Shown here in pieces: positions 134 to 14,844 of a DNA stretch of 64,000 bases. Within the stretch, counting starts at the first letter, position 1. Each line of letters begins with the position of its first letter. The position numbers and the translations under genes were made by a program. The DNA is from Pseudomonas sp. ACM7 (GTDB lineage Bacteria; Pseudomonadota; Gammaproteobacteria; Pseudomonadales; Pseudomonadaceae), in assembly GCF_004136015.1 (NCBI RefSeq), contig NZ_CP024866.1, forward strand, positions 5,163,859 through 5,227,858, read 5' to 3'. The notes below the pieces were generated by a model. The model was not told where the DNA came from and ran no database searches. It was given only the letters and a program-made list of their open reading frames with translations.

Positions 134-1513
134 TTATTGCTGTAGCACGGTTGCCCGGTTGTCGTTGCCCATTTGCTGCACGGTCGCAGTCTGGGTCATG
201 CCACTCTGAGTGACGCTGGCAATGTTGCCGGTGCCGCCCTGAGTGACGTAGGCCACGTTCATGGTGCCGGACTGGTCGAAGTCGGTGGTGTTGCCAGTGC
301 CGGTGCTACTGCCCTGAGCCAGGTTGGTGGTGCCGCGCTGGTCGGCGATGAGGATGTTGTCGCTGCCGTTCTGGTCGAAGTACAGCTCGTTGTAGTTTTC
401 AGCCTGTTTGACCGTGGTTTTGTTGCCGGTGCCCGTCTGGCTGGTGGTCATGATGTGGCCGACGCCGTCTTGTTTGAAGCTGGCGGTGTTGTTATTGCCG
501 GCTTGGGTAATGGTTGCGCGTTGGTTACTGCCGAACTGGCCGCCCAGTTGCGGGCCTTTCCAGTTGCTGGCGTAGACCTTGTTTTCAGTGCCCACGGAGG
601 TAGCGTTCAACACTTGGCTGTCGCCGCTTTGATAGGTGAAGTGCACGTTGCCGGTACCTTGCTGGTACAGCGCCAGGACCGAGCCGATGGAGTCGAACTG
701 GTCCGCATAAATTGCGTTGAGGTCGCCGACTTGCAGCACCTGGGCGACGTTGTTTTCGCCGAAGCTCTGGTCGACCACGGTCTCGTTGGTTTTCCCGTAC
801 TGGTTGACGGTGGCCTCGCTGGCGGTTTGCCCGCCTTGCCAGACTTCGGCGCCGTTGAAGTCGCCGAACTGGTTGATGGTCACGGTACCGCCGTTGCCAT
901 CGCGCTGGTCGCCATAGGCGTAGTTGCCTTCGCCCGCCTGGTTGAGATTGATCTGGCCGCCCATGTGGGCGATTTGTTCGGCGGTGGCGTAGTTGGCGGT
1001 GCCGTACTGGATGATCACTGCGTTGTTGGCAGTGCCCAGTTGGATCTGTTCGATATTGGCCTCGTTGCTGTCACCAAACTGGAAGGTTTGACCTTGGGTG
1101 CCTTCCTGACTGTCCTGATAAATGAACGAGAAGTTGCCGCTGCCCTGCTGTTGTTGCAGCGCTTCGTTGCCGCCCATGCCGATCGACTGGCTGGCATGGC
1201 TGGTGTTGGAGCTGCCGACCTGTTGCTGGGTGATGGTGCTGCCGTTTTCGAACAGTTGCTCGGCGTAACCGGCGTTGTAGTCGCCGAGTTGATCCTGGGT
1301 GATGGTGCCGGTGGCGTTGTCTTGCACCGCTGCGGCATCGTTGCCCTCGCCGAGTTGCTGCTGGGTGGCGGTACTGAACGGGGCCGCGGTCTGTTTCACG
1401 TCGGCGATGTTGGCGGTACCGACCTGGTCCTGGGTGGAAACGCTGTCGTCGGCCATCGCCTGGGCACTGAGTAGGACCAGGATGGTGGCGGTGAGGGGCG
1501 TCAGTTTGAACAT
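134..1513 (-). CDS. csgA: Curlin repeat protein, major curli subunit (CsgA-like)
   Basis: Secreted amyloid subunit that would polymerise outside the cell into curli fibres. A signal peptide (about residues 1-21, ending AQAMA) is followed by about twenty imperfect curlin repeats of 20-23 residues with the Q-x-G-x-x-N-x-A-x-x-x-Q pattern running to the C terminus (last residues ATVLQQ). At 459 residues it is about three times the length of enterobacterial CsgA (about 150), as is common for pseudomonad curlins. It is the last gene of the operon, 27 bp after csgB. The secretion genes csgE, csgF and csgG are absent from the window, so export machinery must be encoded elsewhere. The repeats produce a long antisense open frame that is not a gene. 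Confidence 0.88.
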   Translation of the reverse strand: MFKLTPLTATILVLLSAQAMADDSVSTQDQVGTANIADVKQTAAPFSTATQQQLGEGNDAAAVQDNATGTITQDQLGDYNAGYAEQLFENGSTITQQQVGSSNTSHASQSIGMGGNEALQQQQGSGNFSFIYQDSQEGTQGQTFQFGDSNEANIEQIQLGTANNAVIIQYGTANYATAEQIAHMGGQINLNQAGEGNYAYGDQRDGNGGTVTINQFGDFNGAEVWQGGQTASEATVNQYGKTNETVVDQSFGENNVAQVLQVGDLNAIYADQFDSIGSVLALYQQGTGNVHFTYQSGDSQVLNATSVGTENKVYASNWKGPQLGGQFGSNQRATITQAGNNNTASFKQDGVGHIMTTSQTGTGNKTTVKQAENYNELYFDQNGSDNILIADQRGTTNLAQGSSTGTGNTTDFDQSGTMNVAYVTQGGTGNIASVTQSGMTQTATVQQMGNDNRATVLQQ

Positions 1514-1540: not shown

Positions 1541-2002
1541 TTAGCGGTATTGTTTGACCGAAACGCTCATGCCGTTTCCGGATTGGGTCACGGCGCTTGA
1601 AAGCCCCGTGCCGGCCTGGTCGATGCTGGCGTCGTTGTTGTTGCCGTTCTGGGAAATCTGCGCGCGGTTGTGGCTGCCGTTTTGCGTGATTGAGGCGGCG
1701 TTGCCACTGCCTTGCTGGGTGATCATTGCCATCAGGTCGCTACCTTGCTGCAGGATGTAGGCTTCCTGATTACTGCCCGACTGGACGATGCGACCGAGCA
1801 GCGACTGGCCGTTCTGTTGCAACAGCGCAACGTTGGCCTGGCCGTTCTGATCGATCAGTGCTTGCTGGCCAATCGGTGGTGGTAACTCGCCGAGGTCGGC
1901 GCCGGGGGCCAGGTCGTCGTTCTCCATCAAATCGTCGGCGCGCGCGCCCGCACTGCTGCAGAGCAGAAGCAGGCAGAGCAGGGCGGCGGTCGAGGTTTTC
2001 AT
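1541..2002 (-). CDS. csgB: Minor curlin / nucleator (CsgB-like)
   Basis: Probable nucleator of the curli fibre. The chosen start (MKTSTAALL) has an AAAGGA ribosome site 6-7 bases upstream; a longer in-frame start 12 codons earlier would put charged residues before the signal peptide. The product has about 153 residues: a signal peptide ending near AGARA, an acidic linker, then five to six curlin repeats (for example ITQNGSHNRAQISQNGNNND) ending in KQYR. Length and repeat number fit CsgB (about 150 residues). The gene is followed closely by csgA and preceded by a 760-codon secreted protein in the same operon. Confidence 0.85.
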   Translation of the reverse strand: MKTSTAALLCLLLLCSSAGARADDLMENDDLAPGADLGELPPPIGQQALIDQNGQANVALLQQNGQSLLGRIVQSGSNQEAYILQQGSDLMAMITQQGSGNAASITQNGSHNRAQISQNGNNNDASIDQAGTGLSSAVTQSGNGMSVSVKQYR

Positions 2003-2062: not shown

Positions 2063-4306
2063 TCAGTTCGAGATCACCGAGACCGTGCGCACGGTGCCTT
2101 GGGACGAGGTGATGGTGGCTGTCGGGTTCGCCGATGGAATCACCGCCGTGGTGTTGTTCACTGTCAGCCTCCAGCGACCGGTCGCCGGTACCGTGGTGGT
2201 GCCCAGGGTTGCCAGCCCGGTCGGGGTGGAGACCTTGATGGTGATGGTGTTGCCGGTGGTCACCGATGAGGTGCCTGCAAAGTCCCAGGTGAAGCGGTTG
2301 TTGGAGCGAGCCGACACCGTTGCCGTGGTCACCGTGAAGGTTTCCGCAGCAGGCCTTGGCGAGACTTGCACGGTGACCGTGGCCGGTGTCGACAGGGCGC
2401 CGAAGCTGTCCCGGGCGATGTAGGTGAAGGTCGTGGTGAAGGCCGTCGTGACCGTGGCCGGTGGGGTGTAGGTGATCACAGTACCGTTGCTGCTGACGGT
2501 GCCACGACCCGCCGCAGGTTGGGTCAGGCTGGCGACCGCCAAAGGCACGTTGCCTTCCGGATCGGTGTCGTTGGCCAACACGTTGATCGGTATCGCCACG
2601 CCCAGGGTCGCGACGGCGTCGGCGACTGCCACCGGTGGCCGGTTAGGCGCCACGGTGATGGTCACGGTCGCTGGGGTAGTCGAAGCCAGGCCTTTGATGT
2701 CTTGAGCCTTGTAGGTGAAGGTCGTGGTTAACGGCACAGTGACCACGGCGGGCGGGGTGTAGACCACCGCAGTCGTGCCGCTCAACGCCACGGTGCCCTG
2801 GCCGGCGGCCGGTTGGGTCAGCGCGGTGATGCTCAGTGGCGTGTTGCCGTCCGGGTCGCTGTCGTTGGCCAGCAGGTTGAGGGTGATCGGCACGCCGAAG
2901 CTGGTGCTGCCGGTGTCGGCCACAGACAGTGGCGCCTGGTTCTCGCCGGTATCCGGTGCGGTACCGACAACCACGACGGGCTCGGTATCGCTGCCGCCCG
3001 CGGCGGATTTTACCGTGACGGTGGCGGGTGGCTGGGTCAGGTCGGCGATGGTGATTTTTTGCAGAGTGCCGGATTTCGACAGACGTCCGTAACCCTGCGC
3101 GACCATGTCTGGCACCGCCACTTCGTCAGTGGACGTGGCCTCGATCAGCAGGCTGTGATTGCTCCAGTTGTAGCGAGCGGTCTGGATTTTCACCAGGTCA
3201 ACGAGCTTGCTCGAGACCGCCGTAGGGCGGGTGGTGCCGGCCGGGTTGGTGGCGGTGAGCACCACGACCGGAGGCACGGGGCCGCTGAGCAGGTGTTGAC
3301 CGAAGTACAACCCGGTGCCGTCACCCACCATGTTGATCAGGCATGGCGTAGGCGGTGGGCCTGGCACAAGGGCGAGGGTTTCGCGGAAGCACAATGTAGA
3401 GCTGTTGTCCGCTTTGCCAAAGACTTCGACCCGGGTGCTGGTACCGGTGCCCGAGGCGATGCGACGGTAGGTTGCACGGCTAAGGTCGACATGGGTTTGC
3501 GCACGGTTGTCGAGGACTTTACCGGCCAGCGTGAACAGGTTGCTTTGGATCGTGCCGGCCGGGCCCTGGATGCGCACAAAGTTGGTGTTGTTGGGGCTGC
3601 CGGTGACTTGTTCGGTGAGGTTCGGGTCGCCGACGAAGGTTTCGATTGCGCCGGTGTCCGGGTTCACTTCGGTATAGGGGCCGTTGACGCTGCGCAGGAA
3701 TGGCCCGATAGCACCGTTGAGTGCCCCGCTGAAATTCCCCGCCGGACCTACGCCGATGTCTCTGGTGATGTTGATTGCGCGACGACCGGGGGTGGTGACG
3801 TTGACCGTTTCCACGCCATAAGGGTGAGTAATGGTGTAGGTCCCGGCGACGGGCACGTTTATCCGCATACGAATCCGCGCAAAGCTGATTTGATCGCCAT
3901 CGAGCGGATTTCCGCCGGCAAAAGCTGCTTCTATCCCGGCCACGTAGGCGTCCATTCCATAGCCAGCGGCATTGTTGGGAATGTTCATCCCGGCGAGGAA
4001 CCAGAAGGCTTCGTCTGGCCAGTTATCCGGGAACACCATCGGCAGGGTGTCGTCGAAAATGCCCGGTGTCGGCAGCAGGGTGCACATGTAGGCCGGTGGC
4101 GTGGCAGCCGGTACCCGCGAACTGGTGGCTCGGGATTGGCACAGTTCCATCGACAGCAGATTGTTGTCCTGATACCAGATCGGGAATTTCCCCGAGGCAA
4201 AGGTATAAGGACCGGGGTCGACGGCAGCGAGTTGCGCGAATGCACTGCCGGACAGCGATAGAGTCAGTCCCAGGGCGTTGAGCGCCAGGCGTGGCCAATT
4301 GTTCAT
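2063..4306 (-). CDS. Large secreted 'VDPGPY' protein with tandem cadherin/Ig-like domains
   Basis: The start MNNWPRL has a perfect AGGAGG site 6 bases upstream and a signal peptide ending SAFA. The first ~430 residues are homologous to the whole upstream gene product (shared AAVDPGPY, GxFxxWYQD, YMC-LLP-PGIFDDT, FPDEAFWF, GDQISFARIR, HPYGVE, PGRRAINITRDIG, GPFLRSVNGPYTE). The C-terminal ~300 residues add two bacterial cadherin/VCBS-like repeats (about residues 460-555 and 555-650, with LANDSDPDGN and LANDTDPEGN calcium-type loops) and a final Ig-like domain. The family of the N-terminal domain is not recognised. Position between a sigma-54 promoter and csgB suggests an extracellular matrix or fibre-associated role; this is inference. 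Confidence 0.8.
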   Translation of the reverse strand: MNNWPRLALNALGLTLSLSGSAFAQLAAVDPGPYTFASGKFPIWYQDNNLLSMELCQSRATSSRVPAATPPAYMCTLLPTPGIFDDTLPMVFPDNWPDEAFWFLAGMNIPNNAAGYGMDAYVAGIEAAFAGGNPLDGDQISFARIRMRINVPVAGTYTITHPYGVETVNVTTPGRRAINITRDIGVGPAGNFSGALNGAIGPFLRSVNGPYTEVNPDTGAIETFVGDPNLTEQVTGSPNNTNFVRIQGPAGTIQSNLFTLAGKVLDNRAQTHVDLSRATYRRIASGTGTSTRVEVFGKADNSSTLCFRETLALVPGPPPTPCLINMVGDGTGLYFGQHLLSGPVPPVVVLTATNPAGTTRPTAVSSKLVDLVKIQTARYNWSNHSLLIEATSTDEVAVPDMVAQGYGRLSKSGTLQKITIADLTQPPATVTVKSAAGGSDTEPVVVVGTAPDTGENQAPLSVADTGSTSFGVPITLNLLANDSDPDGNTPLSITALTQPAAGQGTVALSGTTAVVYTPPAVVTVPLTTTFTYKAQDIKGLASTTPATVTITVAPNRPPVAVADAVATLGVAIPINVLANDTDPEGNVPLAVASLTQPAAGRGTVSSNGTVITYTPPATVTTAFTTTFTYIARDSFGALSTPATVTVQVSPRPAAETFTVTTATVSARSNNRFTWDFAGTSSVTTGNTITIKVSTPTGLATLGTTTVPATGRWRLTVNNTTAVIPSANPTATITSSQGTVRTVSVISN

Positions 4307-4341: not shown

Positions 4342-5688
4342 TCATTGCACGATGACCACTTCTTCGGTGTCGCTGCCGCCATTGGATGACGTCACTCGAA
4401 CCTTGGCCGGTGGTATCGGCGAGATGCCGGTGGCCAGGGATTTCACTGCGCCATCGCCACTGAGGGCGCCAATGGCGACACCTGTGCCAGAGGTGGCTGT
4501 GAGCACCGGTGGCGAAGTTTCGTCGCTGGTCGAGGCCACGACCGTTATTTGCCCGGTGCTGAGGCTGTATTCGGCACGTGAAATCACCACCAGGTCCGTC
4601 AGGGGCATGGGTAAGGTGGTCGGTGTGCTGCTAGCGATGGCCAGGTGGTTGTCGGCGGTCACTTGCAACGTGCTCGGCAAGCTGGGGTTGGTCGAAGATT
4701 GCGCATACCAGTTGCCGGTGGTGTTGGCCTCGGTAAGGTTCAACACCGGGTTGTTGCTGTCCAGAGTCACTTTGGCCGGTGGCGGCGGGGCCAGGGCGAA
4801 CACGTCTTGCTGAGCCACCGGAGCGCTGGCGCCGGGTTTGCGCGAGTAGGTGCTGCGCTGGGTGATCAATGGCGTCGGCCGTGCCATTGTCGCCAACTTG
4901 CCGGAGATGGCCATCACCGTCGTGCGCAAATCCAGCCCGTTGGGGCCTTCAATGCGTATGTAGTTGGTATTGAAAGGGCTGCCGGTGAAGGCTTCCACCA
5001 GGTTCGGGTCGCCGACGAATTGCTCGGCTGAACCGGTGACCGGATTGGTCTCGGTGTAGGGGCCATTGACGCTGCGCAGGAACGGCCCGACATCGCCCTT
5101 AAGGGCACCGTCGTAGGTTTTCGGCACGCCGATGCCGATATCCCGGGTCATGTTGATCGCCCGACGCCCGGGGGTGTCGACGTTGAAGACATCGACGCCG
5201 TAGGGGTGGGTAATGACGTAGGTGCCCGCGGTCGGTACATCGACACGCAGGCGGATGCGGGCGAAGCTGATCTGGTCACCTTCGACCGGGTCGCCACCAC
5301 TGAAGGCGGCTTCAACGGCGCTGACGTAGGTCAGGTCGATACCTCGGGCTGCGTCGACGATGGTGCCGTCGCCGGTGAACCAGAACGCCTCATCAGGGAA
5401 GTTGGTCGGGAAGACGAGCGGTTGCGTGTCGTCGAAGATCCCGGGTGCCGGCAGCAAGTTGCACATGTACGTCGGTGCGCCCGGTGCGCTGGGCACTCGC
5501 GAGCTGACAGCCTTGGACAGGCAAAGATCGAGGGTTCGACCGTGAGTGTCCTGATACCAGGCAGCGAACGAGCCGTTGGCTTGCACGTAGGGGCCTGGGT
5601 CGACGGCAAACAGCGCCGCCTGGGCGACGCCTTGGGCCAGTGCGCTAACGACCAGGGCGGCCGCGGTTTTGGACAGTAAAGGGTGCAT
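4342..5688 (-). CDS. Secreted 'VDPGPY' protein, first gene of the curli operon
   Basis: A 448-residue protein with signal peptide (MHPLLSKTAAALVVSALAQG, ending AQAAL). It is a paralogue of the N-terminal region of the next gene: both share the VDPGPY opening, paired cysteines around LDLCLS and YMCNLLP, the FDDTQPLVFP segment, GDQISFARIRLR, HPYGVDVF, PGRRAINMTRDIGIG and FLRSVNGPYTE. It lacks the cadherin-like repeats. Both proteins end their homologous region with a GGSDTE-VVIV motif. The function is unknown. It is the promoter-proximal gene, 65 bp below a sigma-54 -12 element, and 35 bp separate it from the next gene, so the four genes are very likely cotranscribed. Confidence 0.8.
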   Translation of the reverse strand: MHPLLSKTAAALVVSALAQGVAQAALFAVDPGPYVQANGSFAAWYQDTHGRTLDLCLSKAVSSRVPSAPGAPTYMCNLLPAPGIFDDTQPLVFPTNFPDEAFWFTGDGTIVDAARGIDLTYVSAVEAAFSGGDPVEGDQISFARIRLRVDVPTAGTYVITHPYGVDVFNVDTPGRRAINMTRDIGIGVPKTYDGALKGDVGPFLRSVNGPYTETNPVTGSAEQFVGDPNLVEAFTGSPFNTNYIRIEGPNGLDLRTTVMAISGKLATMARPTPLITQRSTYSRKPGASAPVAQQDVFALAPPPPAKVTLDSNNPVLNLTEANTTGNWYAQSSTNPSLPSTLQVTADNHLAIASSTPTTLPMPLTDLVVISRAEYSLSTGQITVVASTSDETSPPVLTATSGTGVAIGALSGDGAVKSLATGISPIPPAKVRVTSSNGGSDTEEVVIVQ

Positions 5689-5751: not shown

Positions 5752-5768
5752 GGCAACTTCCATACCAA
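5752..5768 (-). promoter_or_regulatory. Sigma-54 (-24/-12) promoter of the curli operon
   Basis: On the minus strand the sequence reads TTGGTATGGAAGTTGCC. It has GG at -24 and GC at -12 separated by exactly 10 bases, inside TTGG and TTGC boxes close to the consensus TGGCAC-N5-TTGC. Initiation about 12 bases downstream (near 5741) leaves a leader of about 53 bases before the ATG at 5688. An NtrC-class activator is encoded at 13024-14454. Confidence 0.7.
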
Positions 5769-5786
5769 CCGTCGAAAACGGCCGGT

Positions 5787-5854
5787 AGAGGCCCGAGTCA
5801 TGGGCGTGTCACTCACAAACGGCATCGGAGCGCGGTTTTTGGGAGCGGGCCTCT
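5787..5854. promoter_or_regulatory. Inverted repeat in the curli/kinase intergenic region
   Basis: AGAGGCCCG (5787-5795) and its complement CGGGCCTCT (5846-5854) lie 59 bp apart centre to centre, upstream of the sigma-54 promoter and in the distance range used by enhancer-binding proteins. The interval 5689-5971 contains no gene. A 10-bp palindrome CCCTATAGGG (5942-5951) sits 20 bp before the kinase start. Function is inferred from position only. Confidence 0.35.
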
Positions 5855-5971
5855 GTCCCCAGGATTGGGGGGAGATGGGGATAAGGAGTAAGTGGGGGGA
5901 CGAGACCCAACGTCGGGCAAACGGCCATGAGTGGGCTATAACCCTATAGGGGAATCGTCGGGAACACGTCC

Positions 5972-7420
5972 ATGGACATGCCTACTCAAACACTTCAGGC
6001 CGAGGAGGGTGATGTTTGCCTGAGCTCGCGCAAGCAGCCGTTCAATTTATTGCGCTGGTTTTCGCTCATCAGCATGGCGGTGATTGGCACGGTGGCGGTG
6101 GCGTTGGGGTCGGTGTCCACCCGGTTCGTGATTACCGAAAGCGTGCAACGCGATGCGTTGTTGACGTCCCAGTTCATTCAGGCGATTGCCTCGGTCGAGG
6201 TGCGCCACGTATCGATTCCCAACGTGCGGACCATGGGCGAGCTGCTCGATCCGCGCAAAGACAAGGACTTTTCCGACGTCGACCCGCTGGCCCGCGCCAT
6301 TGCCCGGGGCGAATTCCTTGACCATATCGAGCACTTGCCGGACGTGATCCTGGCCAATATCTATGCCCCCGACCGCAGGGTGATCTGGTCGACCAACCCG
6401 GCGTTAATGGGCACTACGATCCATGCCGACGAAGACCTCGATCAAGCCTTTGCTTCCAAAATTCCGGTGTCGGCCAGCTATCACGATGTGAACAAGAGCC
6501 GCATGGAACAGAAGTTTGTGGCGCCCCCGGAATACATCTTCATCGAGAACTACATTCCGTTGTTCGATGTCGACGGCAAGAACGTCACGGCGATGGTCGA
6601 GATCTACAAGGAACCCAAGGACCTGATCAGCCGCATGGAGCGCGGCCTGGTGCTGATCTGGCTGGCCACTGCGCTGGGCGGCGGGCTGATTTACCTGGGG
6701 CTCTACTGGATAGTGCGCCGGGCTGCCATTTTGCTGGCGGCGCAACAAAAGCAACTGATCACCAACGAAACCTTGGTCGTCCTGGGCGAAATGTCGTCGG
6801 CGGTCGCCCACAGTTTGCGTAATCCGCTGGCGACCATCCGTTCAAGCGCCGAACTGGCGCTGGAATTCGACAGCGGCCCGGCCCACAAGAACATCAACGA
6901 CATCATCGGCCAAGTGGATCGCATGTCGAAGTGGGTGAGGGAGCTGCTGCAATCCTTGCGTCCGCTCAACGATGACGCCGAGCCTGTCAATCTGGTGGCG
7001 GCGCTGCATGACAGCCTGATGGCCTTCGAGCATCAAATCACCAAAGCCTCGGTCCATGTGGTGTTCGACCCGAAGCTGACGCCCATGGTCCTTAGCCAGC
7101 AGGTGCAGTTGACGCAGATCCTCAACAGTTTGCTGGCCAATGCACTGGAAGCCATGGACAAGAGCGGCACGTTAATCATCACATTGGAGCCGACCGATTC
7201 CCGTGGCCTCAGCGTGGTGGTGAGCGACACCGGCAAAGGCATGAACGAAGAACAGCGCAGCATGGCCTTCCGGCCGTTTTTCACCACCAAACAAGGTGGG
7301 CTGGGTGTCGGGCTGGTGCTGGTCAAGCGGATCATGGAGCGGTTTGGCGGTGCGGTGGCCCTGGAAAGCCGTGAAGGCGAGGGCACGAGTGTCCGTCTGT
7401 CGTTCAAATTGGTCCCCTGA
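5972..7420 (+). CDS. Membrane sensor histidine kinase (MnxS-like)
   Basis: Sensor kinase of 482 residues. Two membrane segments (about 27-50 and 218-243) bracket a periplasmic sensor of about 170 residues. The kinase core follows: H box VAHSLRNPLATIRS (His near 279), N box LLANALEAM, DTGKGM, and the G box GGLGVGLVLVKRIMERFGG. It is a full-length paralogue of the kinase at 11562, including the periplasmic domain (MGEMLDPR/MGELLDPR, VxWSTN, EYIFIENYIPLF). The two kinases flanking a multicopper oxidase, with one NtrC-type regulator, match the MnxS1/MnxS2/MnxR arrangement described for Mn(II) oxidation in P. putida GB-1; which of S1 or S2 this is cannot be decided here. It is divergent from the curli operon. 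Confidence 0.85.
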   Translation: MDMPTQTLQAEEGDVCLSSRKQPFNLLRWFSLISMAVIGTVAVALGSVSTRFVITESVQRDALLTSQFIQAIASVEVRHVSIPNVRTMGELLDPRKDKDFSDVDPLARAIARGEFLDHIEHLPDVILANIYAPDRRVIWSTNPALMGTTIHADEDLDQAFASKIPVSASYHDVNKSRMEQKFVAPPEYIFIENYIPLFDVDGKNVTAMVEIYKEPKDLISRMERGLVLIWLATALGGGLIYLGLYWIVRRAAILLAAQQKQLITNETLVVLGEMSSAVAHSLRNPLATIRSSAELALEFDSGPAHKNINDIIGQVDRMSKWVRELLQSLRPLNDDAEPVNLVAALHDSLMAFEHQITKASVHVVFDPKLTPMVLSQQVQLTQILNSLLANALEAMDKSGTLIITLEPTDSRGLSVVVSDTGKGMNEEQRSMAFRPFFTTKQGGLGVGLVLVKRIMERFGGAVALESREGEGTSVRLSFKLVP

Positions 7421-7434
7421 AAAAGGGTGTGAAC

Positions 7435-7474
7435 TTTCCCCGTTAGTGGGTGTCATTCCCCAGTCGTTTTCCCC
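7435..7474 (+). promoter_or_regulatory. Candidate enhancer site cluster upstream of the oxidase gene
   Basis: Three (A/T)TTCCCC copies at 7435, 7455 and 7468, two of them preceded by GGGTGT, lie about 100-140 bp upstream of the predicted sigma-54 start site. That is the usual distance for an NtrC-family activator. C-runs of the TCCCC type also occur at similar distance above the curli promoter (5855-5885, minus strand). Binding is inferred, not demonstrated. Confidence 0.3.
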
Positions 7475-7548
7475 GGTTATGGCACATTGATGTTGATAAG
7501 TCATTGTTTTGTTAAGTATTAATACTTTTGTAAATAACGGTTACAGAT

Positions 7549-7565
7549 CTGGCGAGGTCCTTGCA
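7549..7565 (+). promoter_or_regulatory. Sigma-54 (-24/-12) promoter of the multicopper oxidase gene
   Basis: CTGGCGAGGTCCTTGCA has GG (7551-7552) and GC (7563-7564) separated by exactly 10 bases within CTGGC and TTGCA boxes, a near-consensus sigma-54 promoter. Predicted initiation near 7576 gives a leader of about 30 bases before the oxidase start. The match supports control by the NtrC-class regulator encoded at 13024. Confidence 0.78.
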
Positions 7566-7606
7566 AAACCCCCATTACCCCCTTCACGACTCCGAGGCGG
7601 CTGGTG

Positions 7607-10420
7607 ATGGACAGAAAAGCGCGGTACCCCTTCAAACGGTTTGGCCTCCTGACGCCTCTGAGCGTTCTTCTGACAATGACGCTGGGCACAGCGACTCTTC
7701 GCGCCAGCCCCATCGACGACGAGCGACAGCCAGAACCTTCCGACCCCTCGGCTTACTACGATGAACCGGCTGACAAAGCCGCGGCGTTGAATGCCATTTT
7801 GACCATGCCCGAGGCCAACAAGGATTCCTTCGATTTACCCGGTGGCGTCAAAGGCAGCAAAGACACCACGCGGGTGGAAAACATTCTGCCGCCGGTGGTG
7901 CAAACCAGTTTCAACTACCCCACCAACGGCAAGCCGAGTCCACTGTATGGCGCTCAGCCGTTTACTCAGCAGTTGGTGCTGTTCGAAGAATTCGGCCCGG
8001 AAAAACTCGACCCCACCACACCGGCAGCGCCGTTGGGTTTTCCACCGGCAGCCATCGGCCCGTTGCCACAGCAGGACCCCACCAGTGCGGCCCGCAGTGC
8101 GCCACCGAGTGCGGCACTCGACGCCTTTCTGCGTCAACCAGGCTTGACTCCGTTCCCCAGCCAGTATTCCAACGTGGTCGACCGTAACCCGTGGCAGAAG
8201 CAGATCGAATTTTTCCTCAACCGCCGTATCGGCTCGTCGGCTGAAGGCCGTCCGCCAGGAAAAGGCTGGTCGCACCAGCGCTGGAACGAGTTTTACCCCC
8301 AAATCGCCTACAAGACCGTGCAAACCGGCGCACGGTTGAATACCGGTGGGCGTGATAGTCGTCAGATGCACCGCTATGCCGTGGGCGAGTTTGGCCCCGG
8401 CGGCCTCTATCACAACGTGGCTGGCGTACCGGCGACCGATGGCACCGCCAAGGGCGTCGATGCGCGTTTCCACCCGAAAATGCCGGTGCAGAACCACAAC
8501 TCGGTCTGGACCTTTGATGGCACCTTGCCGCCAAAATTGTTGATGGTGCGTTACGGGCAACCCGTGTTGATGCGCCATTACAACGGCTTGCCGATCGACC
8601 CGTCGGCGAACATGGGGTTCGGTTTGCACACCATCACCACCCACGAACACAACGGCCACACACCGGCTGAAAGTGACGGTTATGCCAATGCGTTTTTCTT
8701 CCCCGGGCAATTTTACGACTATCGCTGGCCGATCCAGTTGGCCGGCTACGACAGCATCAACACCAAGGCTGAAGACCCGCGTGCAGCCTTTCCGTGCTCG
8801 CCGGGCGAAACCCTATGGACCAACGACCTCATCCCCAGCCGCAAGACCTGCGAAAACGGCACCATCAAAATCCGCGGCGACTGGCGCGAAACCATGAGCA
8901 CCCACTGGTTTCACGACCACATGCTCGATTTCACCGCGCAGAACGTCTACAAGGGCAACGCGGCAATGATGAACTACTACAGCGCCCTGGACCGCGGCAA
9001 TGAATCGGTGAATGACGGCGTCAACCTGCGCTTTCCCAGTGGCAGCGCCTTGCCTTGGGGTAACCGCGACTATGACGTCAACCTGCTGTTTGCCGACAAG
9101 GCGTGGGATAAAAACGGTCAACTGTGGTTCAACCCGTTCAATACCAACGGCTTCCTCGGGGATCAGGTGCTGGTCAACTGGCAGTGGAAACCGACCCTGG
9201 ATGTGCGCGCCCGCAGCTATCGGTTCCGCATGCTCAATGGCTCCGTGTCGCGCTTCTTCAAACTGGCGCTCGTGCGCGAGATCAAGGGCACCAGCGGGGA
9301 GTTCCAAGGGCCTGCCGGCTCGGGAGTGTCGTATGCCCGCGTGCCGTTCCACATGATTGCCAACGACGGCAACATCATGGAACACAGCGTGCCGTTCGAC
9401 GGCAGCATGGACCTGGATGCCGACGGCGATAAACAGAACCACAACGCGATCCTGCCAACCCTGGGCATTGCCGAACGTTTCGACATCATCGTCAACTTCT
9501 CGAAAAACGGGATCAAACCGGGCGACAAGCTGTTCTTCGTCAACCTGCTGGTGCACGAAGACGGCAAGGGCCCGAAAGAACCCGTCTCCCTGGCTGACGT
9601 GCTGTCCGAGAAATACCGGGCGATCCTCAAGCAAACCAGCAAGGGGCCGAAGTGGGAGGACGGTGATCCGGCGGTAGGCAAGGTGTTGCAACTCAACGTC
9701 AAGGCCTACACCGGCCAGGACCTGGCCATGGATCCGGCAGCGTACGAACCGGCCAAACCGGGCAAAGCCGAAGGCTTGGTGATGATCCCGCTGAAGATTC
9801 ACCGCGACAACACCGCCGACAAGGCGCTGCTGGCCAAAGCCCGTCACCGCACCTTCACCTTCGGCCGTTCCGACGGTACCGATGAAGCACCGTGGACGGT
9901 CAAGACCGATGGCGGTTTCGGTTTCTCCATGGACCCACGTCGCTTGAACACCGCGACCCAGCTGGCCAGTGGCCCCACCGATGCCGGTGTCGCCGGTTTC
10001 GGCACCCTGGAAGTGTGGAACATCAAGCTCGGCGGCGAGGGCTGGAGCCACCCGGTGCATGTGCACTTCGAGGAGGGGATCATCCTCAGCCGCGGCGGCA
10101 AGGTGCCACCGGAATGGGAAAAATGGGCACGCAAGGACGTGTACCGCATCGGCTCGGAAAAGGATGGCCTGGACAGCGTCGAAATAGCGATCAGCTTCCG
10201 CGAATTCGCCGGGACGTACATGGAGCACTGTCACAACACGCAGCATGAGGACAACTCCATGTTGCTGCGCTGGGACATTGAAAAACCGGGGCAATTCCAG
10301 CTGATGCCGACACCGCTGCCAAGTTGGGATGGTGTGCGCTACGTGAACTCCGCCGCGCTGCCAACCTTCCGCACTGGCGACGGCTCCGGCCCCGGCCCCA
10401 AAGAGGTGGTCCAACCATGA
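7607..10420 (+). CDS. mcoA: Large secreted multicopper oxidase (McoA-like, putative Mn(II) oxidase)
   Basis: Copper oxidase of about 937 residues with a signal peptide (FGLLTPLSVLLTMTLGTATLRA). All four copper-binding motifs are visible: THEHNGH (about 345-352), THWFHDH (about 431-437), HPVHVH (about 814-819) and the T1 loop HCHNTQHEDNSML (about 873-885). The family passes electrons from a substrate through a type 1 copper to a trinuclear site that reduces O2. In P. putida GB-1 the oxidases MnxG and McoA oxidise Mn(II) under control of MnxS1/S2 and MnxR; the flanking kinases and regulator here make McoA the best match. The ATG at 7607 follows a GAGG; a GTG three bases earlier is equally possible. 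The stop overlaps the next ATG (ATGA). Substrate is inferred from context. Confidence 0.82.
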   Translation: MDRKARYPFKRFGLLTPLSVLLTMTLGTATLRASPIDDERQPEPSDPSAYYDEPADKAAALNAILTMPEANKDSFDLPGGVKGSKDTTRVENILPPVVQTSFNYPTNGKPSPLYGAQPFTQQLVLFEEFGPEKLDPTTPAAPLGFPPAAIGPLPQQDPTSAARSAPPSAALDAFLRQPGLTPFPSQYSNVVDRNPWQKQIEFFLNRRIGSSAEGRPPGKGWSHQRWNEFYPQIAYKTVQTGARLNTGGRDSRQMHRYAVGEFGPGGLYHNVAGVPATDGTAKGVDARFHPKMPVQNHNSVWTFDGTLPPKLLMVRYGQPVLMRHYNGLPIDPSANMGFGLHTITTHEHNGHTPAESDGYANAFFFPGQFYDYRWPIQLAGYDSINTKAEDPRAAFPCSPGETLWTNDLIPSRKTCENGTIKIRGDWRETMSTHWFHDHMLDFTAQNVYKGNAAMMNYYSALDRGNESVNDGVNLRFPSGSALPWGNRDYDVNLLFADKAWDKNGQLWFNPFNTNGFLGDQVLVNWQWKPTLDVRARSYRFRMLNGSVSRFFKLALVREIKGTSGEFQGPAGSGVSYARVPFHMIANDGNIMEHSVPFDGSMDLDADGDKQNHNAILPTLGIAERFDIIVNFSKNGIKPGDKLFFVNLLVHEDGKGPKEPVSLADVLSEKYRAILKQTSKGPKWEDGDPAVGKVLQLNVKAYTGQDLAMDPAAYEPAKPGKAEGLVMIPLKIHRDNTADKALLAKARHRTFTFGRSDGTDEAPWTVKTDGGFGFSMDPRRLNTATQLASGPTDAGVAGFGTLEVWNIKLGGEGWSHPVHVHFEEGIILSRGGKVPPEWEKWARKDVYRIGSEKDGLDSVEIAISFREFAGTYMEHCHNTQHEDNSMLLRWDIEKPGQFQLMPTPLPSWDGVRYVNSAALPTFRTGDGSGPGPKEVVQP

Positions 10421-11460
10421 ACCGCGAGGGAGCCGACATGAAAATGCATACGCCGCGCTCCCGCGCCCTGGGCATGCACCTGATTTTGATGTTGGTCACC
10501 TGCCTGCTGGCCAGTCGGGTGCTGGTGGCTCATGAAGCTGCTCCGTCCGTGTCAGCGTCACCGACGGAGTCGGCGACGCCCTGGGGCGGTGATTACTTCC
10601 CCAACACCTTGCTGACCGATCAGGACGGTCGGCAGTTGCGTTTCTTCGATGATTTGATCAAGGACAAGGTGGTGGTGATCAATTTCATCTTCACTTCGTG
10701 CAGCGACTCCTGCCCGCTGGAAACCGCGCGCCTGCGTCAGGTGCAGAAGTTGCTGGGGGATCGGGTCGGCCAGGACATTTTTTTCTACTCCATCAGCATC
10801 GACCCCTTAAGCGATACACCCGATGTGCTCAAGGCCTACGCACAACGCTTCAAGGTCGGGCCGGGCTGGAAGTTTCTCACCGGGGAGTTTGCCGACGTCA
10901 CCGATCTGCGAAAAAAACTCGGGCTGTTTATCGAAGGCGTCGACAACGGACGCAGCAAGGACCACAACCTCAGCCTGATCGTCGGCAACCAGACCACGGG
11001 CCGCTGGATGAAAGCTTCACCTTTCGAAAACCCGTGGATTCTGGCCGATCAGTTGGCCAACACACTGCAGAACTGGAAGCAGCCCAGCGTTGAAGAAAAC
11101 TACGCGGATGCGCCCGAGATTCGTCCGCCGAGCAACGGCGAAGAACTGTTTCGCACCCGTTGTGCGTCGTGCCACAGCCTGGGTCCGATGGACGGGCAGG
11201 GCATCGGCATGCGCAGCATCGGCCCGGACCTGATCGGCGTCACTCGCCTGCGTGATCCGGCCTGGCTGAGTCGCTGGATTCGCGAGCCGGACCGCATGCT
11301 GGCGGAAAAAGACCCGATCGCGCTGGAGCTGTTTGAGCGTTTCGACAAAATTCCCATGCCCAACCTGCGGCTGGATGAGAACGCGGCGCAGTCCATCGTG
11401 GGTTTTTTGCAGGAGGAAACCGAACGACAGCACCCGCTACAGGCCGCGCAAACGCAATAG
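10417..11460 (+). CDS. SCO1/SenC copper chaperone fused to a cytochrome c domain
   Basis: An N-terminal membrane anchor or signal (LGMHLILMLVTCLLASRVLVA) is followed by a thioredoxin-fold SCO domain (about residues 45-220) with the copper-binding CxxxC in TSCSDSCPLE (about 94-98) and the partner His in KDHNLSLIVG (about 182). The C-terminal ~100 residues form a class I cytochrome c with CASCH (about 249-253) and a likely Met ligand in KIPMPN. The fusion would act in the periplasm, and translational coupling to the oxidase (ATGA overlap) suggests that it loads copper into, or takes electrons from, that enzyme. An alternative start at 10438 has a good GAGGGAG site. Domain calls are firm; the partner is inferred. 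Confidence 0.85.
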   Translation: MNREGADMKMHTPRSRALGMHLILMLVTCLLASRVLVAHEAAPSVSASPTESATPWGGDYFPNTLLTDQDGRQLRFFDDLIKDKVVVINFIFTSCSDSCPLETARLRQVQKLLGDRVGQDIFFYSISIDPLSDTPDVLKAYAQRFKVGPGWKFLTGEFADVTDLRKKLGLFIEGVDNGRSKDHNLSLIVGNQTTGRWMKASPFENPWILADQLANTLQNWKQPSVEENYADAPEIRPPSNGEELFRTRCASCHSLGPMDGQGIGMRSIGPDLIGVTRLRDPAWLSRWIREPDRMLAEKDPIALELFERFDKIPMPNLRLDENAAQSIVGFLQEETERQHPLQAAQTQ

Positions 11461-11561
11461 CGGCTTAATCCTGTCATTGGGGCCGTCTGTCTCGATCAAT
11501 GCCACCTACACTGATCCGAAACACGGCTGAAAAGGCTATGCAAGGCATCCGGGAAGGTCCT

Positions 11562-13055
11562 ATGCAGATACCAGAACAACAAAAAATACCTGCGTCGGCT
11601 ATGTCGGAAGCAGAAAGCAAGGACTGGCGAGGACAGTTCAACTTGCTGCGCTGGTTTTCCCTGGGCAGCTTTTTCATCATCGCCGCCGTGGCGCTGGGGT
11701 TGGGCTATGTGTCCACGCGTTTCGTCGTCGATGAGAGCATCGAGCGTGATTCCATGCTGACTGCGCAGTTCATTCAGGCCATTGGTGATGCGGAAATTCG
11801 CCATGCCGGCATCACCCTGCAAAGAACCATGGGCGAAATGCTCGATCCGCGCGATGACATTGCCTATCCCGACGTAGATCCGGCGGCCCGTGCCGCTGCC
11901 CGCATGGAGTTTCTCGATCATGTCGAACACCTGCCGGACACGCTGTTGGCGGTGGTGTACGCCCTGGATCGCACCGTGGTCTGGTCGACCAATGCACAAA
12001 TGATTGGCATGCGCGTCGAAGGTGATGAGGAACTGGACGAGTCCTTCGAAATGAAGGAACCGGTGTCCACCAGCTACCACGAAATCGATGAGGAACGTCC
12101 CGAGCAGCAACTGCTGCGTGAGCCTGAATTTCTGTTCATCGAGACCTACATCCCGATGTTCAACGCCGACAAGAGCAAAGTGATCGCCATGGTGGAGATC
12201 TACAAGGAACCCGCGGACCTGGTGGAACGCATCCAGCGTGGCTTCAAGCTGATCTGGCTGGCAACTGTACTTGGCGGTCTGGCCATCTACCTCGGGCTGT
12301 TCTGGATTGTGCAGCGCGCGGCCATGCTGCTGCAAAGCCAGCAGAAACAACTGATCAGCAACGAGACCTTCGTCGCGCTGGGGGAAATGTCCTCGGCGGT
12401 GGCCCACAGCTTGCGCAATCCGTTGGCCAACATTCGTTCCAGCGCCGAACTGGCTCAGGACATCGCCAGCCAGAACGCGCAGAAGAACATCGGTGACATC
12501 ATCAGTCAGGTCGACCGCATGTCGCGCTGGGTTCGGGAGTTGCTGGTGTCATTGCGACCCGTGAACGACGACTACGAAACGGTAGACCTGGTGCTTGTCA
12601 TCGACGACACGTTGAGTGCGTTTGACGCGCTGATTAAACGCTCCGGCATCGACGTGCGTTTCACCCCTCAGAGTTGTCCGCCGGTCATCAGCCAACAGGT
12701 GTTGCTCACGCAAATTGTTAATAGCCTGTTTGCCAATGCCCTGGAAGCCATGCCCAAGGGCGGCGTGCTGAGTATCGATATCGAAACGCCGCAGCCCGGA
12801 CTCGTGCGCATGACCCTGAGCGATACCGGCAAGGGAATGACCACACAGCAACAACAAATGGCCTTCAAGCCGTTTTTCACCACCAAACAAGGAGGGTTGG
12901 GCGTGGGCCTGGCCCTGGTCAAAAGAATAATGGAGCGTTTCGAAGGCTCGGTCGAATTGACCAGCCGAGAGCAGGAAGGAACCCGCGTTTGTCTCAATTT
13001 TAAAGTGGCAACGGGAGGGGACTATGGAGCACAGCATTCTGCTGGTCGAGGATGA
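11562..13055 (+). CDS. Membrane sensor histidine kinase (second MnxS-like kinase)
   Basis: Full-length paralogue of the kinase at 5972, about 497 residues from the chosen ATG, which has GGAAGG just upstream; ATGs at 11499 and 11538 are in frame but less well placed. Two membrane segments (about 30-52 and 225-250 from this start) enclose a periplasmic sensor. The core carries VAHSLRNPLANIRSS, LFANALEAM, DTGKGM and GGLGVGLALVKRIMERF. Its 3' end overlaps the response-regulator gene by 32 bp, so the two are coexpressed and probably form a cognate pair. Requirement for both kinases is known for MnxS1 and MnxS2 in P. putida GB-1; identity here is by context and family. Confidence 0.85.
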   Translation: MQIPEQQKIPASAMSEAESKDWRGQFNLLRWFSLGSFFIIAAVALGLGYVSTRFVVDESIERDSMLTAQFIQAIGDAEIRHAGITLQRTMGEMLDPRDDIAYPDVDPAARAAARMEFLDHVEHLPDTLLAVVYALDRTVVWSTNAQMIGMRVEGDEELDESFEMKEPVSTSYHEIDEERPEQQLLREPEFLFIETYIPMFNADKSKVIAMVEIYKEPADLVERIQRGFKLIWLATVLGGLAIYLGLFWIVQRAAMLLQSQQKQLISNETFVALGEMSSAVAHSLRNPLANIRSSAELAQDIASQNAQKNIGDIISQVDRMSRWVRELLVSLRPVNDDYETVDLVLVIDDTLSAFDALIKRSGIDVRFTPQSCPPVISQQVLLTQIVNSLFANALEAMPKGGVLSIDIETPQPGLVRMTLSDTGKGMTTQQQQMAFKPFFTTKQGGLGVGLALVKRIMERFEGSVELTSREQEGTRVCLNFKVATGGDYGAQHSAGRG

Positions 13056-14454
13056 TGAACTCCTCGCCGAGAATATTCAGACCTACCTGGAGCGCAAGGA
13101 CTTCGAGGTGACGGTCTGCCACTCGGCTGAGGACGCGTTAGAACAATTGGGCACTTTCGTCCCGGACGTGGTGCTGACCGATAACTCGCTGCCGGGCATG
13201 AGCGGTCACGACCTAATCCAGAAGCTGCGCATCAGCGCGCCGGATCTGAAAGTGATCATGATGACCGGCTACGGCAACGTCGACGACGCCGTGGTGGCAA
13301 TGAAAGAGGGCGCTTTCCATTACGTCACTAAACCGGTGGCCATGCCGGAACTCAAACTGCTGCTGGACAAGGCCCTGGCCACCGACCGAATGGAACGCAC
13401 ACTGTCGTTCTATCAGGAACGCGAAGCGCAGAAGTCAGGGGTGCAGGCATTGATCGGCGAATCGGCACCGATGCAGTACCTGAAAAGCACCATTGGCCAG
13501 TTACTCGACGCCGAGCGGCGCATGGCCAATACCGATCTGCCTCCGGTGTTGGTGGAAGGCGAGACCGGCACCGGCAAGGAACTGGTGGCCCGTGCGTTGC
13601 ACTTCGACGGCCCGCGCAGCAAAGGTCCGTTCATTGAATTCAACTGCGCCTCGATTCCTTCCAACCTGGTGGAGTCGGAACTGTTCGGCCACGAGAAAGG
13701 CGCCTTCACCGACGCCAAGGACCGCCGCGTCGGGCTGGTGGAAGCGGCCGATGGCGGGACGCTGTTTCTCGATGAAGTCGGCGAGATGGACTTGTTGCTG
13801 CAAGCCAAACTGCTGAAGCTGCTGGAGGACCGGACGATCCGCCGGGTCGGCTCGGTGAAGGAGCGCAAAGTCGATTTACGGGTGATCAGCGCCACCAACT
13901 GCAACCTTGAACAAATGGTCCAGCAGGGCAAGTTCCGCCGCGACCTGTTCTTCCGTTTGCGGATCATCTCGATCAAGGTGCCGCGCCTGTATGCCCGTGG
14001 CGCGGACATCCTGCTGCTGGCTCGACACTTCCTGGCGATCCACGGCAAACGTTATGGCAAACCGAACCTGTATTTCAGCGATCAGGCCGAGGAATTGCTG
14101 CTCAGCTACAGCTGGCCGGGCAACGTGCGCGAGTTGCGCAACATGCTTGAGCAAACCGTGTTGCTGGCCCAGAGCGACACCGTCGCCGCCCATCAATTGA
14201 ACGTGTGCCTGAGCCTGGTGGATGAGCCGCTGTTGTTCCAGCAAGAGCCGCAATACTGCGAACCGCGTCCGGTTTACAACGGCACCGAGTCCATGAACCT
14301 GCCGGAAGTGGAGCGCGACATGGTGCGCAAGATGCTCGACAAGACCGACTGGAACGTCACCAAGTCCGCACGGCTGCTTGGCCTGAGCCGCGACATGCTG
14401 CGCTACCGGATCGAAAAACTTGGCCTCGCGCGCCCGGAAAAACGCCAATGGTAG
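13024..14454 (+). CDS. mnxR: Sigma-54-dependent NtrC-class response regulator (MnxR-like)
   Basis: A 476-residue activator in three parts. The receiver domain (1-120) has acidic pocket ED10D11, phospho-acceptor Asp53 in [10 protein letters not shown] and Lys in VTKP. The AAA+ domain (about 145-385) has Walker A GETGTGKE, the sigma-54-contact loop [15 protein letters not shown] and Walker [14 protein letters not shown] Fis-type HTH closes the protein (about 430-470, [24 protein letters not shown]). The usual GAFTGA loop reads GAFTDA; the second Gly is replaced by Asp. A strong GGGAGGGG site precedes the ATG, which lies inside the kinase gene. Likely targets are the two sigma-54 promoters at 7549 and 5752. 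Confidence 0.87.
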
Positions 14455-14457
14455 ACC

Positions 14458-14844
14458 TTATTGCATCAATGGCCCCTGACGGCTGAGGCACGCGAGCAGG
14501 CACGTGGGGTCGAGGACTTCTTCGTTCACGTAGACACCGCGTTGCTGATCGTAGGAGCGGATGAACACTCGAACCGTGGCATCCGCTACCGTCGGCAATC
14601 TTGAGTCGTAGAACTCATGCTGACTCGAAATGGGGGTGAAGTCCTGAGGCGCTGTCGGGATGTACGAGCCGGGCGGCACCGTGCTTAGTGACGGTGGCAC
14701 GGGGTGAGCGAAGGGTTGGTCGGCCCCGTAATAGTTGAACTCACTGCTGTAATCGGTAGTGGGTGTCAGGCTGTCGTCCGCGTGAGCACCGGTTGTGGTG
14801 ATCAGGCAGAGGGCGAGCAGTAGCCTCAGATCGGTTGTTTTCAT
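14458..14844 (-). CDS. Small secreted protein of unknown function
   Basis: A 128-residue product with a clear signal peptide (MKTTDLRLLLALCLITTTGAHA). The mature part is proline- and tyrosine-rich at first (YSSEFNYYGADQPFAHPVPP), then a compact segment with RVFIRSYDQQRGVYVNEEVLDP and a C-terminal Cys pair in PTCLLACLSRQG. I do not recognise the family. It is convergent with the response regulator, only 3 bp between stop codons, and has its own CAGGTG ribosome site. No sigma-54 promoter was found before it. Confidence 0.65.
   Translation of the reverse strand: MKTTDLRLLLALCLITTTGAHADDSLTPTTDYSSEFNYYGADQPFAHPVPPSLSTVPPGSYIPTAPQDFTPISSQHEFYDSRLPTVADATVRVFIRSYDQQRGVYVNEEVLDPTCLLACLSRQGPLMQ

Follow-up and report, generated by a model that had tools for sequence, protein, structure and literature searches.

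Within a stretch of 64,000 nucleotides from the chromosome of Pseudomonas sp. ACM7 (NZ_CP024866.1, positions 5,163,859 to 5,227,858 of the forward strand; 'the window' denotes this whole stretch), a curli operon lies next to genes arranged like the MnxS1/MnxS2/MnxR system of manganese oxidation. We propose that the NtrC-class response regulator MnxR, predicted to bind the palindrome CCCC-N6-GGGG, acts with sigma-54 to switch on curli, the curli export machinery and the manganese oxidases as one regulon, and we put the probability of this reading, which comes from sequence comparison, at roughly 85%. That one sigma-54/NtrC-class regulon covers both the oxidase and curli had been suggested in a first-pass annotation of this DNA. 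The suggestion is now supported from three sides: the curli operon very probably belongs to the MnxR/sigma-54 regulon because its promoter element is conserved, the palindrome is shared, and its first gene, lead1, co-occurs with mnxR. The regulon is also very probably wider than first proposed, taking in four operons: curli (lead1-lead2-csgB-csgA), mcoA, mnxG, and an operon in which csgE, csgF and csgG follow genes of a type II secretion system (T2SS-csgEFG), since mnxG and T2SS-csgEFG carry the same pair of sites. The names lead1 and lead2, for the two secreted proteins that head the curli operon, are labels coined in this analysis.

Conserved sigma-54 promoter elements

The sites in the window on which the proposal turns are the following.

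5752..5767, minus strand: -24/-12 element of the lead1-lead2-csgB-csgA operon (TGGTATG-GAAG-TTGCC), 79 bp before the ATG of lead1
5857..5870, minus strand: CCCC-N6-GGGG, lying 89 bp ahead of the curli -24 and predicted to be the MnxR site of that operon
7438..7451, plus strand: CCCC-N6-GGGT (seven of eight positions match), lying 98 bp ahead of the mcoA -24 and predicted to be the MnxR site of that gene
7550..7565, plus strand: -24/-12 element of mcoA (TGGCGAG-GTCC-TTGCA); the gene starts 54 bp downstream, at 7604

Both -24/-12 elements have the GG-N10-GC spacing originally claimed for them; the curli element is on the minus strand as described, but its extent, given as 5752-5768, is corrected here to 5752-5767. 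A single element of this kind proves little, because sigma-54-like matches occur at chance level genome-wide: consensus matches with at most two mismatches (568 + 556) are hardly commoner than in a reversed control (532 + 546). In the window, a weight matrix with approximate values gives 14 sites scoring at least 11.4 on the two strands and 2 scoring at least 13.9, so that any single-strand segment of 150 bp would contain such a match with a probability of about 0.016 for the curli element and about 0.002 for the mcoA element. This background speaks for a reading in which the elements are chance matches and the curli and Mnx genes, though adjacent, are controlled separately. On the sequence comparison, the significance of the elements comes from their conservation and not from the single matches. 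A score of at least 11 was found before lead1 in 59 of 67 non-identical upstream regions, before mcoA in 52 of 54, before mnxG in 41 of 41 and before T2SS-csgEFG in 11 of 11. The curli element is also present in all 20 regions taken as unlinked to mnxR, where its position relative to the extrapolated start ranges from -68 to -86. In 18 of the genomes concerned mnxR is more than 60 kb away or on another contig, and the remaining two have it at 23 kb (G162) and at less than 15 kb (G169). In a second set of named genomes (the best 80 of 315 relatives, partly overlapping the genome draw described below, 76 of them with enough upstream sequence), 55 of 76 lead1 regions score at least 11. GG-N10-GC is thus conserved upstream of the gene, one clade with GT at -12 excepted.

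A palindrome shared by four operons

Alignment of the regions reveals a CCCC-N6-GGGG block upstream of both the curli and the mcoA promoters. Only a few blocks are conserved across 21 diverse lead1 upstream regions, and these include the palindrome, the -24/-12 element and the start region. The palindrome thus resembles an activator site, conserved about 100 bp before the -24. It was counted 45-170 bp upstream of the -24, with the expectation taken from dinucleotide shuffles. Before the curli operon it is perfect in 56 of 67 regions (1.57 expected) and matches at seven of eight positions or better in 65 of 67 (15.67); the corresponding figures are 22 of 41 (1.61) and 33 of 41 (11.05) for mnxG, 11 of 11 (0.41) and 11 of 11 (3.08) for T2SS-csgEFG, and 7 of 54 (0.92) and 52 of 54 (9.06) for mcoA. 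When the regions are thinned to less similar sequences, perfect copies remain in 46 of 57 for curli (1.37 expected), 15 of 31 for mnxG (1.21), 11 of 11 for T2SS-csgEFG (0.27) and 6 of 38 for mcoA (0.50), where seven of eight or better is reached in 36 of 38 (6.17). Observed counts are about 3 to 36 times those expected from shuffles, according to the operon and the stringency chosen, which argues against chance matches, as does the conservation of these blocks among the diverse lead1 regions. Before T2SS-csgEFG the palindrome is doubled in each of the 11 counted regions, the two copies being perfect and set 43-45 bp apart; two further regions have two perfect copies (L269) and one (L277). Of the 76 lead1 regions of the named genomes, 73 have a perfect palindrome and all reach at least seven of eight.

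In the 6.6-Mb genome of the strain itself, CCCCRNNNNTGGGG is found at 18 places (3 + 4 strand matches in the reversed control), four of which lie before mnxG (one), T2SS-csgEFG (two) and curli (one). Of the 18, only the places before curli and T2SS-csgEFG have a sigma-54 element of at least 11.5 within 190 bp downstream; at one other place (L169) an element scoring 11.2 lies at 44 bp. Before mnxG of this genome, the perfect copy is about 360 bp from the start and the near copy matches at seven of eight positions. As a control, seven genomes were taken that have a different curli system and lack an MnxR match. In none of them was a perfect palindrome with a sigma-54 element found within 18 kb around csgG, by a criterion so strict that the window's own mcoA promoter would escape it too. 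A scan of the window for IHF-like sites gave one, with one mismatch, between the palindrome and the -24 of mcoA, and none with up to two mismatches at the curli promoter.

The palindrome also bears on the identity of the activator. Some other NtrC-class protein might bind it before the curli operon, with sigma-54 doing the rest; such activators are numerous in Pseudomonas genomes (more than 100 first-look candidates in this one), and a different amyloid, Fap, uses RpoN with the regulator BrfA (PMC9207406). The same palindrome, however, precedes mnxG and mcoA, whose oxidation phenotype requires mnxR (PMC11409713), and lead1 accompanies mnxR in 101 of 101 genomes. We therefore regard an activator other than MnxR as highly unlikely.

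Co-occurrence of lead1 with mnxR

The gene content was compared in one draw of 298 Pseudomonas genomes; the counts ignore kinship, so that Fisher values cannot be read as probabilities. In this draw mnxR was found in 102 genomes, lead1 in 101, mcoA in 92 (some partial), mnxG in 95 and csgG orthologues in 94, with seven further genomes holding only a CsgG about half identical. Both mnxR and lead1 are present in 101 genomes, mnxR alone in 1, lead1 alone in 0 and neither in 196. The sole genome with mnxR only (G222) is 73% complete and has mnxR on a 5-kb contig; G048 is counted as lead1-positive though its copy looks broken. The csgG orthologues are confined to mnxR genomes (94 of 94). The oxidases follow lead1 less strictly: mcoA and lead1 are found together in 89 genomes, mcoA alone in 3 (weak or partial matches), lead1 alone in 12 and neither in 194. 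All 12 lead1 genomes lacking an mcoA match have mnxG, and all six lacking mnxG have an mcoA match (in G265 partial and 58% identical). Each of the 101 lead1 genomes thus has at least one oxidase match, so the oxidases vary while lead1-lead2 stay.

The first-pass annotation had pointed to the neighbourhood in other genomes as informative, and lead1 and mnxR do lie less than 15 kb apart in 64 of 100 genomes, a proximity that taken by itself would suit neighbours without shared control. In 10 genomes, however, they are 15-60 kb apart, in 12 more than 60 kb, and in 14 on different contigs, some of these probably through assembly breaks. Linkage does not account for all of the co-occurrence, which persists where linkage is broken. 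In the unlinked genomes, lead1-csgBA is still near csgEFG and mnxG in some (G189) and apart from them in others (G199, G109, G101). Judged from these sequences, the unlinked genomes largely refute chance matching between mere neighbours, which we consider extremely improbable. At the loci of the named genomes, mnxR was found in the upstream flank in all 66 that are long enough to tell, and a nearly full mcoA in 47 of 66. Outside the genus, a search with the MnxR of G059 gave a match at E 1e-130 in 1 of 244 genomes of the order, its own, in a search that scores few candidates per genome and could miss more distant relatives. Six genomes (G265, G203, G027, G059, G234, G042) have one kinase and no mcoA between lead1 and mnxR; this layout may be the ancestral one, into which mcoA came afterwards.

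Genes of the locus

The genes of the two divergent units in the window are as follows.

134..1513, minus strand: csgA-like major curlin (Pfam Curlin_rpt 80.3 bits, cut-off 20.7; NCBIfam CsgA 124.4 bits, under the cut-off of 160)
1541..2002, minus strand: csgB-like minor curlin (Pfam Curlin_rpt 77.1 bits; NCBIfam CsgB 79 bits, under the cut-off of 165)
2063..4306, minus strand: lead2, secreted, a lead1-like part followed by Big_9/cadherin-like repeats (Pfam Big_9, Cadherin_4, Cadherin_5)
4342..5688, minus strand: lead1, secreted, heads the operon (no match in Pfam or NCBIfam)
5972..7420, plus strand: mnxS1-like sensor kinase (HisKA, HATPase_c)
7604..10420, plus strand: mcoA-type multicopper oxidase (Pfam Cu-oxidase_2; gene order)
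10435..11460, plus strand: SCO1/SenC-cytochrome c protein (Pfam domain search)
11544..13055, plus strand: mnxS2-like sensor kinase (domains; identity to the first kinase)
13024..14454, plus strand: mnxR-like NtrC-class response regulator (Response_reg, Sigma54_activat, HTH_8)

The Mnx names are used here because the order kinase-mcoA-SCO-kinase-mnxR is that reported for strains MS-1 and DSV-1 (PMC11409713); gene order and domains are their basis. The layout of an Mnx system, in which mcoA and SCO stand between two paralogous kinases and an NtrC-class regulator is present, is borne out by domains, by gene order and by the 62.6% identity of the kinases over 457 aa, in agreement with the likeness to MnxS1/MnxS2/MnxR noted at the outset. 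The regulator matches Sigma54_activat with 218.8 bits and has a GAFTDA motif at residue 226, so the sigma-54 contact loop is kept. The kinase gene at 5972-7420 does stand alone between the curli and oxidase units. The description of the minus-strand unit as a 'curlin operon' holds in part: its -24/-12 element and csgB/csgA are real, but the operon starts with two secreted proteins that are not curlins. Curlin repeats score above the Pfam cut-off in both csgA and csgB, whereas the E. coli-based NCBIfam models stay below theirs. A 128-aa protein without a family match (14458-14844, minus strand) adjoins mnxR and is kept beside it in several relatives, at L131-L135, L137, L139, L267, L268, L270 and L271.

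To the left of the window on the same chromosome, a span of about 27 kb from csgA takes in both mnxG and the T2SS-csgEFG operon. There (L009) csgE, csgF and csgG come after a run of type II secretion genes, and all three products score above their Pfam cut-offs. The operon's first gene (L009 2642-3175), right after the doubled palindrome, encodes a response-regulator protein with only a receiver domain. Between csgG and csgA, the translation shows a reverse transcriptase that probably belongs to a group II intron (L009 13338-14744). The T2SS-csgEFG operon is preceded by one with a 1965-aa mnxG-type gene (L161), which has no Pfam match and is named from its length and from neighbours as listed for GB-1 and OF001.

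Curlins and the lead proteins

Several observations weigh against the single regulon as we propose it. MnxR control of curli is a prediction from sequence, and the co-occurrence counts of mnxR and lead1 are not phylogenetically independent. Most mcoA regions have an imperfect palindrome, and of the 41 mnxG regions just 22 have a perfect one and 33 one that matches at seven of eight positions or better. Among the 59 curli sites, one (L124) is a different site at -29, the element at -95 scoring 10.3. A Pseudomonas koreensis-like clade reads GT for GC at -12, and 19 of the 21 regions scoring under 11 (n = 76) belong to it; the curli promoter of this clade may be weak or shifted. The remaining points concern the curlins themselves: no curlin gene was found in at least 5 kb downstream of lead2 in G021, G162, G265 and G276, and the lead1-lead2 copy of G270 likewise has none beside it; 7 of the 101 lead1 genomes lack csgG; and lead1 and lead2 are steadier partners of mnxR than the curlins are. 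Where lead1-lead2 occur a second time, next to a second mnxG (L274), they have no perfect pair of sites. The GT clade is seen at L062, L064, L066, L068, L069, L132, L133 and L318 (P. koreensis DSM 16610), where the palindrome is intact. In G136, one of the seven genomes without csgG, the csgE match is truncated and csgB is broken.

Since lead1-lead2 can be kept without curlins, and 7 of the 101 genomes do without csgG, the lead proteins are the core target and curli is a frequent partner. A stricter version would have MnxR control lead1-lead2 in the service of the manganese oxidases, the curlins being downstream passengers with no role in forming manganese oxide. The greater constancy of lead1 (101 of 101 with mnxR, against 94 of 101 for csgG orthologues) and the cases named above (G021, G162, G265, G276 and the G270 copy), in which lead1-lead2 remain and no curlin gene was found downstream, speak for it, and so does a second lead1-lead2 pair in G263 that is divergent to a second mnxG and has no curlins. 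On the other side, csgEFG end another operon with two palindrome copies and a -24/-12 element, so that curli is tied in twice, and csgG orthologues occur in mnxR genomes only (94 of 94). We consider it rather unlikely that the curlins are passengers, and retain the regulon in which MnxR and sigma-54 would switch on curli together with its export machinery and the oxidases.

Related arrangements were seen in other genomes. For the second lead1-lead2 pair of G263 (L274, 5667-15939) the identity is 53-62%, and for its mnxG 74%; in this pair, lead1-lead2 look like partners of a manganese oxidase. In G087 (L275, 5505-8876) a second-type mcoA (75% identical) continues in frame into a stretch like the lead2 repeats, as if it carried its own immunoglobulin (Ig)-like tail. 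In G048 (L137, L273) lead1, lead2 and csgA look broken and the mcoA between the kinases is a remnant; the genome nevertheless retains mnxS1, mnxS2 and mnxR, and has a complete second-type mcoA at another place. As for the lead proteins themselves, lead2 is 45.6% identical to lead1 over 461 alignment columns. The structure model of lead1 is of middling confidence (mean predicted local distance difference test score, pLDDT, 67.6; predicted template modelling score, pTM, 0.45), and Foldseek matched generic multi-domain, largely Ig-like proteins with a template modelling score of about 0.2; for these reasons we claim no fold beyond a predicted mostly beta structure. Among the best 120 of 1807 matches in a protein search, the named ones are mostly 'hypothetical protein' of Pseudomonas, with some 'glycoprotein gp2'.

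Discussion

A phosphorylated NtrC-class activator bound about 100 bp upstream reaches the sigma-54 polymerase by looping of the DNA. We suggest that MnxS1 and MnxS2 would phosphorylate MnxR, which is predicted to bind CCCC-N6-GGGG about 90 bp upstream of the -24/-12 element and would reach the polymerase in this way. The manganese and stationary-phase input that drives the oxidase promoters would then also raise curli, and CsgE, CsgF and CsgG would export the curlins. The least certain step is the last, in which the amyloid, with the lead1 and lead2 proteins, may hold the oxidases or the manganese oxide outside the cell; an amyloid-mineral matrix is a plausible function. More tentatively, and as something we doubt slightly more than we believe, MnxSR might at root be a matrix regulator and manganese oxidation the mineral-forming arm of a four-operon programme, in which curli, Ig-like partners and interchangeable oxidases are exported via T2SS and CsgG into an amyloid-manganese-oxide composite.

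The proposal fits what is reported of Mnx systems. In P. putida GB-1, mnxS1, mnxS2 and mnxR are required for manganese oxidation, and in MS-1 rpoN is (PMC11409713); the mnxG and mcoA promoters are manganese-dependent, active in stationary phase and have predicted sigma-54 and IHF sites (PMC11930936). The present locus resembles these systems in its gene order and in the sigma-54 sites at mnxG and mcoA, and its predicted control agrees with the sigma-54 dependence of their manganese oxidation, but it differs in that the lead1-lead2-csgBA and T2SS-csgEFG operons bear the same pair of sites. The word curli does not occur in the accessible text of either of these papers. A paper that contains both mnxG and curli (PMC3056050) treats curli, in the part available, without reference to manganese oxidation. 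No report of curli in the Mnx regulon was found in the literature searched, a search that did not extend to the key early GB-1 Mnx papers.

The curli genes share with the csgBA/csgEFG system of the Enterobacteriales the curlin repeats and CsgE, CsgF and CsgG. E. coli curli is controlled by CsgD, whereas here there is a sigma-54 promoter, predicted MnxR control and an operon that begins with two additional secreted proteins. Near the csg genes of Pseudomonas, P. stutzeri excepted, no csgD has been found, and the accessible account leaves the curli regulator open (PMC3521004). Sigma-54 control of a Pseudomonas amyloid is not new as such, the precedent being Fap of P. fluorescens PF07, an amyloid operon with a -24/-12 promoter and the RpoN-dependent regulator BrfA (PMC9207406). 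Fap differs in amyloid family and regulator, and the terms manganese, multicopper and mnx do not occur in the main text of that paper.

Both the role and the regulation of manganese oxidation in the cell (PMC11930936) and the control of curli in Pseudomonas lacking a nearby csgD (PMC3521004) have been called open questions. A shared regulon, if true, would make both directly testable by gene deletions, and the 14-bp site offers a handle for mapping the whole regulon. The formation of manganese oxide would then belong to the building of the biofilm matrix, perhaps of a matrix that bears mineral.

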